Virus record (IMG/VR): IMGVR_UViG_3300047478_000080
Location: 1 to 20,675 of that record
Reading direction: 5' to 3' (one strand)
DNA length: 20,675 nucleotides
Source of the DNA: a virus
Part shown: one piece after another, positions 2,998 through 9,273 of the stretch
Position numbering within the stretch: the first letter of the stretch is position 1
Layout of the letters: every line of letters starts with the position of its first letter
The notes under the pieces: model-generated
The model's database searches: none
What the model saw: only the letters and a program-made list of their open reading frames with translations
Told to the model about the DNA's origin: nothing
Position numbers and translations under genes: made by a program

Positions 2998-3495
2998 TTG
3001 GGTTTTCTTGACGACTTTAAAGAACAGATAGAGAGCGTCGTCAATGATGTGGCGGAACACGTCGTTGGCCTAACCTCAATGGGGCAACTCAAATACAAAG
3101 ACGGTAAACTCACTTCGCCGCTTTTAGAGAGTGACTTTGTAAGAGACATCGGGCGTTCAGTTAAGAGCGTGTCACCAGAGCTTCTCAATGCTCAAGTTAA
3201 CCTCATGACAGGCGGCATGGCCGGCTATAAAGATGGCAAAATCACAGAGGGTCTTGACTTTAAAGTGCTAGATAGAATAACGGGGCGGGACTTGGTAGAA
3301 AGACAAATGCGGATGCAAGAGGCTCAGATCGAGAGAGAAGAGAAACTGCGCGACAGGTTTTTACTTGAAGAAAGAACCACAAGACAGCACGAGGACTTAG
3401 CGGCGTCTAACATGGCACAAGCCTCGCGCAGGAGTGCTGAGATGAGATCTGGTTTTTTTGGGTCTCCTTTGGAACGTAACTTTTTAGGACTATGA
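2998..3495 (+). CDS. Hypothetical virion-module protein, TTG start
   Basis: The family is not recognised. The 165-aa soluble protein contains a short internal repeat, YKDGKLT (33-39) and YKDGKIT (77-83). A long charged helix with coiled-coil character (about 99-147, rich in R, E, Q and M) follows, and the C-terminus (SGFFGSPLERNFLGL) is Gly/Phe/Leu-rich. TTG 2998 is chosen because an in-frame stop lies at 2974-2976, a strong GGGAGGA (2984-2990) sits seven bases upstream, and no ATG or GTG fits. The next Met is residue 28. The gene overlaps the portal gene by 4 nt (ATGA). Its place between terminase and portal suggests a minor head or portal-associated role; this is inference from position only. 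Confidence 0.75.
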   Translation: MGFLDDFKEQIESVVNDVAEHVVGLTSMGQLKYKDGKLTSPLLESDFVRDIGRSVKSVSPELLNAQVNLMTGGMAGYKDGKITEGLDFKVLDRITGRDLVERQMRMQEAQIEREEKLRDRFLLEERTTRQHEDLAASNMAQASRRSAEMRSGFFGSPLERNFLGL

Positions 3496-5219
3496 TGATT
3501 TACCCAGGTGTTAATAAACAAAACTGTGAATATCTGAGAAACCAAGCCAAGCAGAAGTTCGACAAGATTCGTGGGACGTGGCTTGAGTGCGGACGCTGGG
3601 CGCTCCCCCATCGTATTAAGTGGATGTTGTCGCAGACCGAGGGTGAGCGCAACAACATGCATGTCGTTGATGTAACGCACATACTGGCTTTGCGGTCATA
3701 TGTCGCCGGATTCCTTGAGGGCAATACGTCAGCAACGAGGCCGTGGTATCGTATCGGTATTGGTGAACCTACAATCGACATGTCACAAGAGAACCATGAA
3801 TGGCTCGATACGTTTACTCGGCGCACACTTAAGGCACTTAGCTCAAGTAATTTCTATCACGCAGCGGGTGAGTTTTATTATGATTTTGGCACGTTTAATA
3901 CTGGTTGCCACTATGTCGAGGAAGTGCAAAAGGGGTTATTTTTTCACACTCTTACGCCCGGGTCATATTATCTGTTAAATAACGGATATGGTGACGCAGT
4001 GGTGATGGTCAGAGAGTTGTCTTTGACAGTTAAAGCTCTTGTTGACACATATGCAGTTAAGAAGCCAAACGGTTCTTGGGACTGGTCCAACTTCTCATCA
4101 CGAGTGAAGAAAATGTACGACGATGGGAACTATACCCAGATGATCGACATCGTGCATATAGTTAAAGAAAACAACGAGTTTAACCCCGAAGAACCCGTTG
4201 CCGGCATGAACAAAGCGTGGCTTGAGGTAACGTATGAGCTTGGCGGAACGGGCGGTCAGTATTACGCAGACGGTATGGAGTTCGGAGCGGCAAACCCTGA
4301 CCCCCACGAGAAAGACACCTATTTAAAGATAGCGGCTCGCAAACGTAAACCGTTTATTGCCGGCAAGTCTAGTACATCAGGGAATTATGAATATGGTGAA
4401 AAGGGTCCAACTCTCGACGCGCTGGGTGTCATTAAATCTCTTAATAAAAAGGCCATTGGTAAAGACCAGGCGCTTGAGCAAATGCTTAAGCCACCCCTTC
4501 AGGGTCCGGCTAATCTTAAGAAGTCTTACATTACAACAGCCCCCAACTCCTATGTACCGCTAGACCCCACAAGCCTGTCGCAGAAAGGGTTACGAACGAT
4601 TTATGAAGTCAACCCCGCAATCGCTCCACTCATACAGGACGTGACCGATTTGCGACAACAAGTAGATAGGCTTTATTATGCTGATTATTTGTTATATTTG
4701 AGTAAAAACCCAAAGACTCGAACGGCGACGGAAACCAATGCGATTGTAAACGAACAGCAAATGGTTATCGGACCAAATCTTCAAAGTCTTAACTGGACGT
4801 ATAACGTACCGGTCGTTGACTACGTTATGGACTATGTACTTGACAATGACCCATTTTTACCACCACCTCCGGCAGACTTAACCGGAAGGTTCTTGTCACC
4901 AGAGTTTATCTCAGTGTTTGCACAGGCCCAAAAAGCTGCTGACTTGCCCGCAATTGACAGGTATATGGCAATGATAGCAAATGTTGGTCAGTTGCAACCT
5001 GACATATGGTACAAAGCGAATCTTGACAAGCTCGCTGATCTTTATGAAGATCGTTTATATTTGCCTGCGGGTTTAAATAATCCGCAAGACAAGGCAGATG
5101 CGTTAAGAGAACAGGCAATGGCACAAAGACAACGGCAACAACAAATAGAGCAGATGGCTCAACTTGCTGGCGCCGCTAAAGATGTAGGTTTACAAGCTAA
5201 TAATGCAAAGGGAGAATAA
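3492..5219 (+). CDS. Portal protein (head-to-tail connector)
   Basis: The 575-aa protein would form the portal ring at one vertex, through which DNA enters and leaves and to which terminase and tail attach. It fits the podovirus head-tail connector family (T7 gp8 type, 536 aa; Pfam Head-tail_con as I recall it). Family-like features are WLECGRWALPHR, the region SSNFYHAAGEFYYDFGTFNT then HTLTPGSYYLLNNGYGDA, and the C-terminal RTATETNAIVNEQQMVIGP stretch. The tail (538-575) is Gln/Ala-rich. The gene starts ATGATG: the first ATG (3492) overlaps the previous stop, but AGGA (3486-3489) is better spaced for the second ATG (3495), which may be the true start. It sits in a terminase, portal, scaffold, capsid order. 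Confidence 0.9.
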   Translation: MMIYPGVNKQNCEYLRNQAKQKFDKIRGTWLECGRWALPHRIKWMLSQTEGERNNMHVVDVTHILALRSYVAGFLEGNTSATRPWYRIGIGEPTIDMSQENHEWLDTFTRRTLKALSSSNFYHAAGEFYYDFGTFNTGCHYVEEVQKGLFFHTLTPGSYYLLNNGYGDAVVMVRELSLTVKALVDTYAVKKPNGSWDWSNFSSRVKKMYDDGNYTQMIDIVHIVKENNEFNPEEPVAGMNKAWLEVTYELGGTGGQYYADGMEFGAANPDPHEKDTYLKIAARKRKPFIAGKSSTSGNYEYGEKGPTLDALGVIKSLNKKAIGKDQALEQMLKPPLQGPANLKKSYITTAPNSYVPLDPTSLSQKGLRTIYEVNPAIAPLIQDVTDLRQQVDRLYYADYLLYLSKNPKTRTATETNAIVNEQQMVIGPNLQSLNWTYNVPVVDYVMDYVLDNDPFLPPPPADLTGRFLSPEFISVFAQAQKAADLPAIDRYMAMIANVGQLQPDIWYKANLDKLADLYEDRLYLPAGLNNPQDKADALREQAMAQRQRQQQIEQMAQLAGAAKDVGLQANNAKGE

Positions 5220-7175
5220 ATGAAAACGAAAATGAAACAACTAGCGGTCGCTCTTGGTTTGTTTATGGGTGGCTACTCGCTTTACGCGAGCTTTGAGGTT
5301 ATCGCAGGAAGTACGAAACTCGGCGGTGGAGCGTTTAATAAAATATGGTGTAGCACAGGCGTAACCTGTAGTCGCGTAGGTGACAAACTTAAGATTGTTA
5401 CTAACGCCGCTGTTGTTGGTGACATCACCATGGACAGCGCAGAGCTTATATCAAATGCGGTAGACGACACTATTGAAGTTAAATCCAACGACGAACATAC
5501 TACGTTGCGCGTCGAAGGCTATGAAGCGAAGAACAGTATTTTAGAACTTGCGGCAGATGACGGTGACGACACTGGTGACAAGTATTATTTAAAATCAGAC
5601 ACGTCAAACGTGTTTACTATAGGTAATGGGTCGACCGATCTTACTACACTCACCACTGTTGGTGACTGGACTTATGGTGGCACTACTCCCTATCTAACTG
5701 TTGGAGACAACGGAGCGGAAGATTCTGGTCTCGTGCTTGATGGATCTGCCGCAAACTGGAACATCTCGCACGACGAGACGGCAGCAAAACTAGTCGTTGG
5801 TCTAGGTACAACTGCCGGTACAACAAACCGCATGGCGTTTGACAGCGCAGACCTAAACATATGGTTAGGTGACGCAAGTGCAGCCGACATGGGCCTTATC
5901 TTCGACGGTAACGCTCAAGACTTTAATATCAGCATGGACGACTCAGTGGATAAACTGGTTATCGGTCTAGGAAGCGTAGCCGGCACAACAAACCGTATGG
6001 CGTTTAACAGTGCCGATTTGAACATAGTGTTGGGTGACGCAAGTACAGCTGACATGGGTCTTGTTTTCGACGGTAATGCCCAGGATTATAACATTTCTTT
6101 AGACGATTCGACCGACGACCTTGTTATTGGTTTAGGAAGCGCAGCCGGCACAACAGATGCAATGCGGATTGACGAGAACCAAGTTGTTACATTTCTTCAA
6201 GACCCCGCTTTCCAAGGTACTACCCCCTATGTAACTGTTGGGGACAACGGAGCGGAAGACTCTGGTATCGTATTCGACGGTGCTGCTGGCAACTGGAATA
6301 TCTCGCACGACGAGACGGCCAGTTCGCTAGTAATCGGCGTAGGTACTGCGGCGGGAACAACTGATGCCATTCGCATTAACACTTCACAAGTTGCTACGTT
6401 TTTAGCTGATCCGATATTTGCAGGTACAACACCTAACGTAACCGTAGGTGATGCCGGCGCGGAAGATGCTCAAGTCACTTTTGACGGTAACGCTCAAGAC
6501 TTCCATGTAGGTCTTGACGACAGTTCAGATAAACTAGTCATTGGTCTAGGTAGCGCATTGGGAACCACAAGCCGAATGACGTTTAATAGTGCCGACCTTG
6601 ACGTTATTTTAGGTGACGCAACAGCCGCCGACGTAAGTTTAATGTTCGACGGTAACGCTCAAGACTTCCATGTGGGTCTTGATGATAGCACTGATGACCT
6701 AGTCATTGGTCTAGGCAACGCACCCGGTACTACAGATGCGATTCGTATTGACGAAAACCAAGTTGTTACTTTCGTGCAAGAGGTTCTAGGTTTAGGTACT
6801 GATAGCTTGTCTGGATTTTTAAACAAGCAAACGGCATCTACCACCACCACCATTACAGCGGTACAATGTGGTCAGACATTCGTAAGCAATAGTGCAGACA
6901 CTCTTACACTCCCCGAAGCGTCTTCGGTGTTGGGTTGTCGTCTAACTTTTGTATGCGGAACTGCTGATGACTTCCACATCGACACAGACGGCACAGATGC
7001 CATCGGTGGCGTGTCAGTGATTACAGGTAGTAACACCACTGCTGTACTCGCTCCGTCTGCTGGTGATCGCATCATGTGTACAGACATCGGCTCAAGTGTT
7101 GTTCTTGAGGCTGTAGGTGCTAACCTGTGGGCTTCCATAGGCGCCGCTGGTGGCGTTTGGACAGATGCCAACTAG
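5220..7175 (+). CDS. Repeat-rich fibre-like protein with signal peptide
   Basis: The 651-aa protein begins like a secretory signal peptide: basic MKTKMKQ, a hydrophobic core LAVALGLFMGG, then SLYA at 20-23 as a possible cleavage site. Two Cys follow (C44, C50). Residues 150-520 hold six repeats of about 30 residues built on DGNAQDF, a D(D/E)(S/T) turn and LVIGLGxxxGTT, starting near 174, 229, 284, 353, 422 and 477, spaced 55 or 69 aa. The end (about 537-651) is a beta-rich domain with ITAVQCGQTFVSN and a final WASIGAAGG, like C-termini of phage fibre proteins, with Cys at 550, 573, 579 and 620. It is probably a fibre, decoration or adhesin protein, perhaps exported. Its position between portal and scaffold is odd. 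AGGGAG (5209-5214) is the ribosome binding site and ATG directly follows the portal stop. Confidence 0.7.
   Translation: MKTKMKQLAVALGLFMGGYSLYASFEVIAGSTKLGGGAFNKIWCSTGVTCSRVGDKLKIVTNAAVVGDITMDSAELISNAVDDTIEVKSNDEHTTLRVEGYEAKNSILELAADDGDDTGDKYYLKSDTSNVFTIGNGSTDLTTLTTVGDWTYGGTTPYLTVGDNGAEDSGLVLDGSAANWNISHDETAAKLVVGLGTTAGTTNRMAFDSADLNIWLGDASAADMGLIFDGNAQDFNISMDDSVDKLVIGLGSVAGTTNRMAFNSADLNIVLGDASTADMGLVFDGNAQDYNISLDDSTDDLVIGLGSAAGTTDAMRIDENQVVTFLQDPAFQGTTPYVTVGDNGAEDSGIVFDGAAGNWNISHDETASSLVIGVGTAAGTTDAIRINTSQVATFLADPIFAGTTPNVTVGDAGAEDAQVTFDGNAQDFHVGLDDSSDKLVIGLGSALGTTSRMTFNSADLDVILGDATAADVSLMFDGNAQDFHVGLDDSTDDLVIGLGNAPGTTDAIRIDENQVVTFVQEVLGLGTDSLSGFLNKQTASTTTTITAVQCGQTFVSNSADTLTLPEASSVLGCRLTFVCGTADDFHIDTDGTDAIGGVSVITGSNTTAVLAPSAGDRIMCTDIGSSVVLEAVGANLWASIGAAGGVWTDAN
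5690..6755 (+). repeat. Intragenic repeats of the fibre-like gene
   Basis: DNA-level copies underlie the protein repeats. GACGGTAACGCTCAAGACTT occurs at 5904-5923, 6483-6502 and 6648-6667; the last two copies match for 26 bases and lie 165 nt apart. A longer block near 5684-5820, coding GTTPYLTVGDNGAEDSG through NISHDET, recurs near 6219-6360 about 535 nt away with mostly silent changes. The pattern indicates successive tandem duplication and divergence, with 165-nt (55-codon) and 207-nt (69-codon) periods. Confidence 0.85.
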
Positions 7176-7181
7176 GTTAAT

Positions 7182-7499
7182 ATGTCTCGCGAGTTGAGCC
7201 CTGAAGAGATTAAAGAAGCCGTTGAGCACCGAGAGGTGCTCAATGACATTTGTGCGGTACTTGCAACCAAGTCCGGTCGCAATTTCATTAAATATTTGTT
7301 TAAACATCTTGGTGCCTCCGAGTTACCTGAATTAGGTTTGACTGGTGACATCTTGATGGATAAACTCGGTTTCTTAAGAGCAGGTAATTCAATTTTTAAA
7401 CTGGTGGCCGAGGCAAATCACGAGGCAGCGGGTTTAATTTTAGCAGAAAATGAAAGGTGGAAAAATGAACAAATATATGCTGATGAACGAGAAGAGTGA
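7182..7499 (+). CDS. Small Bbp19-like phage protein
   Basis: The 105-aa acidic, helical protein resembles the small Bbp19-type family found beside podovirus capsid genes. It shows an N-terminal helix, a segment VLATKSGRNFIKYLFKHLG (about 27-45), a middle LTGDILMDKLGFLRAGNSIF and a helical, charged tail. Family function is unknown to me, and the family call rests on overall pattern, not a diagnostic residue. The ribosome binding site is weak (TAGG just after the previous stop, before ATG 7182). Its 3' end overlaps the scaffold gene by 35 nt, so the two are probably co-translated. A role in head assembly is inferred from position. Confidence 0.7.
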   Translation: MSRELSPEEIKEAVEHREVLNDICAVLATKSGRNFIKYLFKHLGASELPELGLTGDILMDKLGFLRAGNSIFKLVAEANHEAAGLILAENERWKNEQIYADEREE

Positions 7500-8235
7500 A
7501 GCCGATGCGGGCGGGGGTAAAAAACAAGTTCCACCGACGCCGCCGCCTCCAAAAGACAATGCGCCACCTAAAGAGGCAGGGGATACTCTCGACGAGTACG
7601 GTTATGACAAACCCAAAGACGAAGTACCGAAAGATCAAAAACCAGCGCCAAAAGGCGAAGAAGACTCCGAGGGAGAAGCGCCCCCTACTGGATACGAAAA
7701 AGAACCCGAGAAACTAGAGCCCCCAAAAGACGACAAACCTAAAGACTCCCCGCCACCCGAGGACGATCTCAAATTGGACCCAAAAGGATTGGCAGACGAG
7801 GACGTTAAAAACGTCAAAGAGTTTGCTAAAAAGCATAAAATAAGCAAAGAGGTGGCTCAAGCACTTCTTGACGAGAGAAAGGCCGCTTTCGATAAGGCAG
7901 TAAAAACATTGGCAGATCAACAAGCCGAAGAAGAGGCCGACATTAAGCGAACAAAGATAGAATGGTATAAAGAACTAAAAAATGATGCGACTTTTGGTGG
8001 CGATAAATTTGAGCACAACATTAAGCAGATCGGCAAAGTTGTAGACGATTTTATGCCAAACTTAAAAAAGGTATTGACAGAGCGTAAGGTTATGATGCCT
8101 CCTTATATCATGAAAGACTTGGCAAAGATTGCCGGTCACTTGTATTCAACAGATAAGATGATACAAGGCGACCCACCGGCGCCAAGTAAAAAAGATGAAC
8201 CGGAAGATGATTCGTTAGCGTTCTATAACTCTTGA
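7465..8235 (+). CDS. Probable capsid scaffolding protein
   Basis: This 256-aa protein lies directly upstream of the major capsid gene, the usual place for the scaffold that guides prohead assembly and is then removed. Residues about 10-105 are extremely Pro-, Lys-, Asp- and Glu-rich and surely disordered. A helical region follows (NVKEFAKKHKISKEVAQ, then a charged coiled-coil-like stretch), then WYKELKNDATFGGDKFEHNI, a pattern I associate with podovirus scaffold-like proteins. The end is acidic and closes with LAFYNS. The frame extends five codons upstream to ATG 7450, but AGGTGG (7455-7460) favours ATG 7465. T7 scaffold gp9 (307 aa) is similar in size, acidity and disorder. No protease motif is visible. 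Confidence 0.7.
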   Translation: MNKYMLMNEKSEADAGGGKKQVPPTPPPPKDNAPPKEAGDTLDEYGYDKPKDEVPKDQKPAPKGEEDSEGEAPPTGYEKEPEKLEPPKDDKPKDSPPPEDDLKLDPKGLADEDVKNVKEFAKKHKISKEVAQALLDERKAAFDKAVKTLADQQAEEEADIKRTKIEWYKELKNDATFGGDKFEHNIKQIGKVVDDFMPNLKKVLTERKVMMPPYIMKDLAKIAGHLYSTDKMIQGDPPAPSKKDEPEDDSLAFYNS

Positions 8236-8247
8236 AGGAGAAATTAA

Positions 8248-9273
8248 ATGGCAGCATTAGGTAGCACACTAGTCACGTTGCTCGATGTAGCGAAAAGCAA
8301 AGACAAGCAAATCGGCAAAGTGGCCGAGGTTCTCATCCAAGAGAACCCGATGTTGATGGACATCCCTTATATGGAGATGAACGAAGGTACAGTTCACAAA
8401 GAAGAAATTCGTTCAGCTTTACCCGATGTTTACTATCGTAAAGCTAACCAAGCTATTCCGGCCTCTAAGACCACTACAGAAGAACGTACGTTTCAGGCGT
8501 CTCACTTTGAGTCAAAATCTCAAATTGATGCGGCTGTTGCAAAGCGCGGCGGTTTAGATCGTATCGCTTATAATCGTTGGAATCAGGCGCAAGGTCACAT
8601 TCAAGCACACGCGATTGAACACGCGAACTTGACGATATATGGCTCACCTGAAGATTCAACTCGTAAGGCGTCAGGATTTTTTGATGTGTACTCGACACTT
8701 GCCAGTACTGAACCAACATACAATCAAATCATTGACGGTGGTGGCACAGGTTCAGACCTAACTTCAATCTTACTTGTCCATTGGGGCGAGCGTTCAATTT
8801 TCGGCGTGTACCCCAAAGGTACACAAGCTGGACTTAAGCGCACAGATCGTTCAGCGGGTAACAAAGAGGTTCAAATTCAAGCTCTTGATTCAAACGGCGC
8901 TGCCGGTTCATTTTGGGGCTATGAAGAACAATTTGAAATCGACCACGGTCTTGTAATTAAAGATTATCGCCAAGGCGCTCGTATTGCCAACATCGACCCT
9001 GCTCTTTTGTTGAGCGGCGTTGGTGCAGCAGACTTGATCGACTTGATGATTAGTGCGGCATACAAAATCCATAACCCACAAAACGGGAACGGGGTTTGGT
9101 ATGTGAATCGCACAATCGAAGCGTTCTTGCACAAACAAGCGTTAAGCAAAGTTGGTGCAGGCGCAGGTCTTACCTATGAGAACTATCAAGGTATGCCTGT
9201 TCTTATGTTCTTGGGTCGCCCTGTCCGTAGATCAGACGCGCTCTTGAATACTGAAGATGAAGTAACTGCTTAA
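8248..9273 (+). CDS. Major capsid protein
   Basis: The 341-aa protein should form the icosahedral shell with the HK97-type fold general in tailed phages. The N-terminal pattern (STLVTLLDVAKSKDKQIG, then VLIQENPMLMDIPYMEMN) and the following PDVYYRKANQAIPASKTTT are typical of a podovirus major capsid family that includes BPP-1-like phages. Later features are QAHAIEHANLTIYGSPE, GVYPKGTQAGLKR and GFFDVYSTLA. Length matches T7 gp10A (345 aa). A strong AAGGAG (8235-8240) sits seven bases before ATG, fitting high expression. The gene lies between scaffold and cement genes. I saw no slippery site for a longer frameshifted form at the 3' end. Confidence 0.92.
   Translation: MAALGSTLVTLLDVAKSKDKQIGKVAEVLIQENPMLMDIPYMEMNEGTVHKEEIRSALPDVYYRKANQAIPASKTTTEERTFQASHFESKSQIDAAVAKRGGLDRIAYNRWNQAQGHIQAHAIEHANLTIYGSPEDSTRKASGFFDVYSTLASTEPTYNQIIDGGGTGSDLTSILLVHWGERSIFGVYPKGTQAGLKRTDRSAGNKEVQIQALDSNGAAGSFWGYEEQFEIDHGLVIKDYRQGARIANIDPALLLSGVGAADLIDLMISAAYKIHNPQNGNGVWYVNRTIEAFLHKQALSKVGAGAGLTYENYQGMPVLMFLGRPVRRSDALLNTEDEVTA

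Follow-up and report, generated by a model that had tools for sequence, protein, structure and literature searches.

We confirmed that a fibre-like protein with a signal-like N-terminus and conserved cysteines is encoded directly beside the portal gene of an uncultivated podovirus, and found that such fibre-like proteins, predicted to be exported, are a real, conserved and modular family, not a one-off. The features computed here are the kept signal-peptide character, paired conserved cysteines, a modular fibre build, a spike-like predicted tip fold and the position of the gene; the preliminary description, which had noticed the protein in a single genome, is thus borne out as to the observation and supported in part as to its interpretation. 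Tailed phages are taken to make and assemble their virion parts in the cytoplasm, a compartment in which disulfides normally do not form. A family with an export signal and paired cysteines would therefore mean either an unrecognised route of fibre assembly or unrecognised exported adhesins that alter the envelope of the infected cell. The export-signal design is common to dozens of relatives from other uncultivated phages, and no relative of the tip was found in the named phage records searched.

The gene, its neighbours and its relatives

The window, that is, the whole stretch of DNA that was analysed, is one complete IMG/VR virus record of 20,675 bases, with terminase, portal, scaffold/protease, GP7 capsid and tail proteins all encoded on its + strand. 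Its PF12236 portal, GP7-type capsid protein and typical gene order make the phage an epsilon15/BPP-1-like podovirus, and its portal and capsid proteins are all less than 60% identical to those of named-phage relatives. The portal gene (3492-5219, +; PF12236, E 2e-78; PHROG 332) is followed straight after its stop by the ATG of the 651-residue ORF studied here (5220-7175, +; predicted exported fibre-like protein), and a ribosome-binding site, GGGAG, can be read directly at 5210-5214 (+), 5 nt upstream of that ATG. Downstream come a 105-residue small protein (7182-7499, +) in the position of epsilon15 gp5 and BPP-1 Bbp19, called Bbp19-like by position and by eye (PHROG 528 only at E 0.03), the scaffold/protease (7450-8235, +; PHROG 458, E 2e-16) and the major capsid protein (8248-9273, +; PF20911 GP7, E 1e-84). 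The gene had been described as lying between portal and scaffold; it does adjoin the portal, but the Bbp19-like gene intervenes before the scaffold.

The N-terminus reads as described earlier, with a lysine-rich start, a hydrophobic core and SLYA at residues 20-23. The predicted signal peptide covers residues 1-23 (5220-5288, +), with cleavage at SLYA|SF, a score of 4.81 by the rule given below, and a helix at residues 3-22 in a weak AlphaFold model. It is followed by a conserved two-cysteine N-domain, residues 24-60 (5289-5399, +), with the motif FNKIxCSTGxTCSR containing C44 and C50; F39, C44 and C50 are invariant in alignments A1 and A4. The fibre body, common to many other phage fibres, extends over approximately residues 147-522 (5658-6785, +, edges approximate) and contains the Asp-rich, fibre-like DGNAQDF/LVIGLG repeats first noticed there, which we resolved into six units within the 651-residue ORF, with the motif [FL]DG.A at residues 173, 228, 283, 352, 421 and 476. 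The C-terminal tip domain, residues 537-651 (6828-7172, +), has homologues in 46 loci and holds C550, C573, C579 and C620, so that the count of six cysteines, two N-terminal and four C-terminal, was correct, none of them within the signal region. The predicted mature protein is strongly acidic, with a net charge of about -69. No credible family for the protein emerged from Pfam, PHROGs or NCBIfam, and a sequence search of the PDB gave no match; an NCBIfam hit to thiamine phosphate synthase (E 4e-5) was rejected, as it scored 23 bits where the cut-off is 218 and fell within the repeats.

A search with the whole protein found one near-identical copy (L002). Portal relatives were found at 17 loci, of which L011 and L012 end just past the portal, and a homologue lay next to the portal in 13 of the 15 testable contigs, the copy in L015 being inverted and at the contig end. 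The other two, L009 and L010, had no homologue at the locus or anywhere on their contigs (31 and 46 kb, possibly incomplete), and the gene is therefore probably dispensable. A context-blind search with the DNA pattern of the N-domain gave 21 stretches, and this pattern together with a search with L016 gave 21 distinct proteins, the window's included. In 40 of 41 locus rows, several of them copies of one contig, the gene lies 3' of the portal, either immediately or with one small ORF in between; the exception is again L015, and, that locus apart, the Bbp19-like gene comes next in the portal-locus rows wherever the contig extends that far. L015, which is the L365 contig and combines a gene inverted relative to the portal, a contig end and an odd number of cysteines, is included in the counts of 13 and 21 above and of 44 below. 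Two homologue groups, A4 and A5, have the signal and N-domain alone in common (hhalign probability 99.1 over 56 columns), and beyond these their C-terminal parts are unrelated. An alternative C-terminal domain of the L008 type was considered as a relative of cement proteins (PHROG 427, E 0.003), which profile comparison did not confirm; its AlphaFold model has a pLDDT of 41. At two of these loci there were further peculiarities: in L018 decay or sequencing error has broken the terminase, portal and capsid genes into several frames, whereas the family gene is intact, and in L005 (5098-5589, +), as also in L006, a second protein of 163 residues with a signal-like start (MKCFSLIFLLLFSFDALGA) is encoded between the portal and the family gene.

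When IMG/VR was searched with the tip alone, blind to both N-terminus and position, 46 loci were recovered, 17 of them on contigs already seen. The new loci span other phage backgrounds, and the gene again lies in the head or head-tail block (several labels by eye): it follows scaffold- and capsid-like genes in L330, is flanked by a capsid-like and a tail gene in L358, belongs to a connector-like block in L334, and comes after capsid and cement genes in L346. Two 665-residue tip relatives, L366:1315-3312(+) and L367:1312-3309(+), begin with a signal-like sequence (MKKLLIILLFFACVIPCFG) and have a body of quite another kind; their tips retain just one of the four cysteines.

Predicted signal peptides and cysteines across the family

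Signal peptides were scored with a home-made, unbenchmarked rule, distinct from SignalP and based on hydropathy values, which requires a net positive charge, a hydrophobic core free of charges and small residues at -3/-1. The rule scanned Met starts within the first 25 residues for the 21 homologues, the same-locus ORFs and the repeat-sharing fibres, and within the first 30 for the fibres with an LPTxTDTLVG motif, the second-locus fibres and the tip loci. All 21 distinct homologues passed, each at 4 or above (lowest score 4.56), the window's own signal being among the weaker ones with 4.81 and a Leu at -3. Among the other ORFs of at least 100 residues at the same loci, 3 of 178 passed, two of them at 4 or above and both lipoprotein-like (spanin Rz1-type, by eye). 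Control fibres sharing the repeats and having their own start passed in 4 of 112 cases, two at 4 or above, and those with the LPTxTDTLVG motif (17 ORFs without an own start were left out) passed at any score in 10 of 105, two at 4.5 or above, none between 3 and 4.5 and eight below 3, in both sets among the matches listed. Convincing signal-like starts outside the family were thus seen in two of the 112 FDGNAQD-repeat fibres and two of the 105 LPTxTDTLVG fibres among the matches listed, namely L021:5622-7619(-), L050:3137-4846(+), L233:3031-3966(-) and L263:6659-7414(+). The tip search, in which the N-terminus played no part, gave the same picture: a start was present in 44 of the 46 loci, and 42 of these 44 passed, all at 4 or above, with L348 and L350 signal-like by eye. 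The remaining two have an open 5' end; in one of these, L324, an inner Met still marks a signal-like stretch. The 29 newly found loci include 27 with a start, of which 25 passed, and counted as distinct mature tip proteins, 37 of 39 did so.

The signal region and the domain behind it have been conserved quite differently. Over 171 pairs, from which the near copies L002 and L014 were left out, mean identity was 24% in the signal region and 56% in 22 residues of the N-domain, and the N-domain was the more similar of the two in 166 pairs. A plain alignment made without the rule (A1, 10 sequences) shows a nearly invariant Ala23 column and an invariant Phe25; the Ala at -1 in 19 of 19 sequences is partly circular, since the rule itself picks Ala, Gly or Ser at that place. 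The residue at +1 is Gly in 16, Phe in 2 and Ser in 1 of these 19 and never Cys, so there is no lipobox. A peptide that docks a fibre on a virion is expected to be well conserved, which a signal peptide need not be; a region that is poorly conserved while its signal character is kept thus argues against the suggestion that the N-terminus might be a virion anchor. With its positive n-region, hydrophobic core and small residues at -3 and -1, the sequence has the features of a substrate of Sec and signal peptidase I, and the idea of a Sec-type export signal is well supported by the comparison (by the rule, 21 of 21 homologues and 42 of 44 tip loci with a start). We consider Sec export of the 5220-7175 protein likely on these sequence features. 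A published survey states that the DGR target proteins of phages are without the signal peptides seen on bacterial ones (PMC6199706), and set beside that statement the present family is unusual in having them.

Two known classes of exported phage proteins were tried and rejected. A SAR endolysin does not fit, as a cleavage motif is present and no lysozyme match was found in Pfam, PHROGs or NCBIfam; nor does the Llp/Cor class of superinfection-exclusion lipoproteins, which have a signal peptidase II lipobox with Cys at +1.

The suggestion that the cysteines would suit an oxidising compartment gained good support. An even number of cysteines (4 or 6, at matching places) was found in 18 of 19 complete mature homologues, the exception being the contig-end copy in L015, and their density, 2.38 per 100 residues, compares with 0-1.10 in 13 other gene families on the same contigs. 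In the first set of full-length tips (n=12), 10 have both the third and the fourth cysteine of the tip (FVC and RCTD) and 2 have neither. Among the 39 distinct tips 37 were informative, L362 (cut) and L365 being set aside; of these, 23 have both, 14 have neither and none has just one, as is expected of a bonded pair. Related tip sequences are not independent events in this count. The tip search patterns hold the first two tip cysteines, whose presence is therefore partly selected, whereas the third and fourth lie outside the patterns. The mature proteins have an even number of cysteines in 37 of the 39 distinct tip proteins, the odd ones being L365 and L367; L366 and L367 keep the second tip cysteine and lack the first, which speaks against pairing there.

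Fibre modules, tip fold and a second locus

The FDGNAQDF/LVIGLG repeat body occurs in at least 123 ORFs at no fewer than 120 IMG/VR loci, mostly with ordinary fibre starts. The structure prediction proposed for the protein gave a mixed result: the AlphaFold model is weak overall (mean pLDDT 53), and the tip is fairly well predicted, with blocks of 66-85 over most of residues 541-640 and one block of 41, and matches phage virion domains. With VIA-align the tip gave Z values of 9.7 for CBA120 TSP4, 9.6 for the Pa223 capsid spike and 8.2 for T4 gp9, which are moderate and somewhat above the reach of unrelated folds, the poorly predicted repeats having hit Z 9.1 against MORN proteins. The MORN-like and OspA-like matches of the repeats were not taken as relatives, their rmsd being mostly 4-12. 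Foldseek found no PDB match at E 0.001 or below (best 1.9e-3), and in a sequence-profile search the spike structure 9ny6 was not significant (E 0.53). Predicted viral structures that matched include marine phage fibres, among them the BFVD entry 'Phage tail fiber-like protein, uncultured marine virus', and the homologue L003 matches the tail-fibre family PHROG 4209 (E 5e-5); of 11 tips, only one matches this family. The predicted tip fold thus resembles phage spike and tail domains, a likeness of fold and not of function; with its repeat body and a tip whose predicted fold is like that of virion fibres or spikes, the protein is, on the model, of the fibre/spike type. That a phage might make a virion fibre and an exported protein with one and the same tip, as a decoy, was considered and gained no support from the 26 records compared, many of which are fragments: none has any tip type more than once.

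On seven related contigs the sequence extends to the gene that follows the tail-fibre adaptor, and in six of them (G001 and G003-G007) this gene too has a signal-like start, five by rule and that of G007 by eye; the counts are small. These tail-locus fibres are L187:2093-4597(+), L190:3397-4581(-), L195:8567-11956(+), L196:307-1566(-), L197:10678-11454(+) and L194:8225-11170(-). Two of the three adaptors tested match the N-terminal part of the tail-fibre family PHROG 5510. G002 has two tail-locus fibres without a signal and is also without the head-locus gene, and G001 has the signal-bearing tail-locus fibre with the head-locus gene absent. A named relative of the G005 fibre, that of podovirus MW202898 (Manatee Spring; L199:1949-4702(+)), also has a signal-like start. 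The mature N-termini of the second-locus fibres are dissimilar, with no obvious common docking piece, and the G006 and MW202898 fibres have one and five mature cysteines, respectively. By eye, ribosome sites favour the signal-peptide Met in several of the tail-locus fibres. The helicase genes L187:13026-15530(+) and L189:7638-10289(-) carry an apparent P-loop intein (GAGK/GGGK then CLGxxTPVLMYDG), which is not in that of G002 (L192:6617-8257), again by eye.

The named phages and bacteria searched yielded no member of the family. With two tips as queries, tblastn detected no relative of the tip among 50,697 named phage records, and tblastn of the whole protein, of L004 and of one tail adaptor against named phages found no homologue; L007 gave 16 weak matches, none within its tip, and the other C-terminal type gave four, to tail proteins of Mycobacterium phages (E 0.2-0.3). 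By the hydrophobicity of residues 1-32, none of the genes listed after the portal in 15 named phages with a related portal has a signal-like start, DC33 and ctEw122 being readable just to the end of the record; the most hydrophobic start belongs to a gene of Cobetia phage Carin1, probably the scaffold, that precedes its capsid gene. In Limnohabitans DC33, ctQRb9 and zth2-2 the slot beside the portal holds a fibre-like gene (by eye) with a common GAPWLY-like start and no signal, and the slot thus appears to be a place for accessory fibres, of which there are two versions. In Caulobacter phage Jess A another accessory gene, for a GDSL-like protein (by eye; L180:5137-6270(+)), lies between portal and Bbp19. 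A portal scan of bacterial genome contigs confirmed no bacterial home, and two bacterial matches to the N-domain pattern were put down to chance, one having no ORF of at least 80 residues on that strand at the place of the match and the other lying in an unrelated lipoprotein-like start. In the literature, no Sec-exported tailed-phage fibre was found described and no title concerned a spike structure of Pa223, in both cases among the matches listed.

Probable export, possible docking and known systems

From these features we infer that the protein is exported by Sec, cleaved after Ala23 and given disulfides in the periplasm, and that it forms a trimer, acts as an adhesin and docks; and we tentatively propose, as a possibility for the whole chain of steps from export through docking at lysis, that the protein is a Sec-exported, disulfide-locked fibre or spike of the virion. 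It would be produced together with the capsid proteins, leave the cytoplasm unfolded via Sec and be cut after Ala23 by signal peptidase I; oxidation in the periplasm would then form one disulfide in the N-domain (C44-C50) and probably two in the tip (C550-C573 and C579-C620). The repeats and tip would make up an adhesin, the constant N-domain would be its attachment end, and body and tip would be swapped between phages. Stored in the envelope until lysis, the protein would most likely then meet the progeny and dock on the virion, at the head or portal region, as an accessory adhesin. The constant N-domain, the modules of virion type and the signal-bearing fibres of the second locus are in keeping with docking at lysis. 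A Sec substrate is normally unable to join virions assembled in the cytoplasm, and docking at lysis is therefore an added assumption. Relatives encode Rz1-like lipoproteins (by eye), which makes a diderm host probable.

Export could equally serve a role away from the virion. The same exported protein might never join a particle and instead, in the periplasm, at the outer membrane or once freed at lysis, bind the receptor there, which we think doubtful; no less doubtful, in our judgement, is the purpose it would then have, of keeping progeny from being lost on debris or infected cells (the superinfection exclusion or receptor masking first suggested). Such a role would explain the export signal and cysteines without extra assumptions and in fewer steps than docking, the gene is absent from two relatives, its binding parts are swapped like those of host-adapted binders, and a precedent is T5 Llp, a phage-made periplasmic disulfide protein that blocks FhuA (PMC9586334). 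Against it, the protein is not a lipoprotein and is presumably late by its position in the capsid operon, no second tip copy was found in the 26 records, many of them fragments, that would make it a decoy of a virion tip, and fibre and spike modules are virion modules. Given these modules, the place in the capsid operon and the signal at the second locus, a virion-related fibre is at least as likely as superinfection exclusion or receptor masking. The family is also a warning that a signal peptide should not be taken to show that an adhesin comes from a bacterium and not from a phage.

Tailed-phage fibres normally have an N-terminal anchor, and the repeats and tip are of virion-module type, so the hydrophobic stretch might instead stay uncleaved and serve a fibre of the usual cytoplasmic kind as its virion anchor or as an assembly peptide. 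We judge this improbable, because such an anchor should be conserved, yet identity there falls far below that of the N-domain and charge, hydrophobicity and the Ala before the mature start alone persist, because the three fibre-like counterparts at the same place in named phages have no hydrophobic start, and because the even, paired cysteines would be left unexplained. That the signal peptide is the relic of a captured host gene in a protein now cytoplasmic is very improbable indeed, for nothing direct favours it beyond a possible host source outside the collections searched, the signal character persists at every one of the 44 tip loci that have a start (by rule in 42, by eye in the other 2) across several phage backgrounds, and the two bacterial pattern matches are not relatives.

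If docking at lysis were general, some tailed phages would export fibres or spikes through Sec, fold and disulfide-lock them in the periplasm and click them on at lysis, one podovirus clade doing so with both a head-locus spike and a tail-locus fibre; this broader proposal is speculative, and we would regard it as rather unlikely at present. Compared with known systems, the window has the block order of epsilon15 and BPP-1 (portal, Bbp19-like, scaffold/protease, capsid, cement), and, unlike it, the 15 named relatives of this type are without a signal-like gene among those listed after the portal. Other phage fibres with FDGNAQDF/LVIGLG repeats have the same repeat body as the window protein, whereas nearly all of them, among the matches listed, start without a signal peptide. 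Over about 90 residues the predicted tip fold is like that of the Pa223 capsid spike (PDB 9ny6) and the CBA120 TSP4 domain (7rej/7rfo), a likeness of the tip alone and of predicted fold, not of established sequence homology. With T5 Llp the protein, if exported as predicted, would have in common that it is phage-made, periplasmic and disulfide-bearing (PMC9586334). Llp, however, is described as a small, acylated, early lipoprotein, whereas the protein described here is large, has no lipobox and is encoded in the capsid operon.
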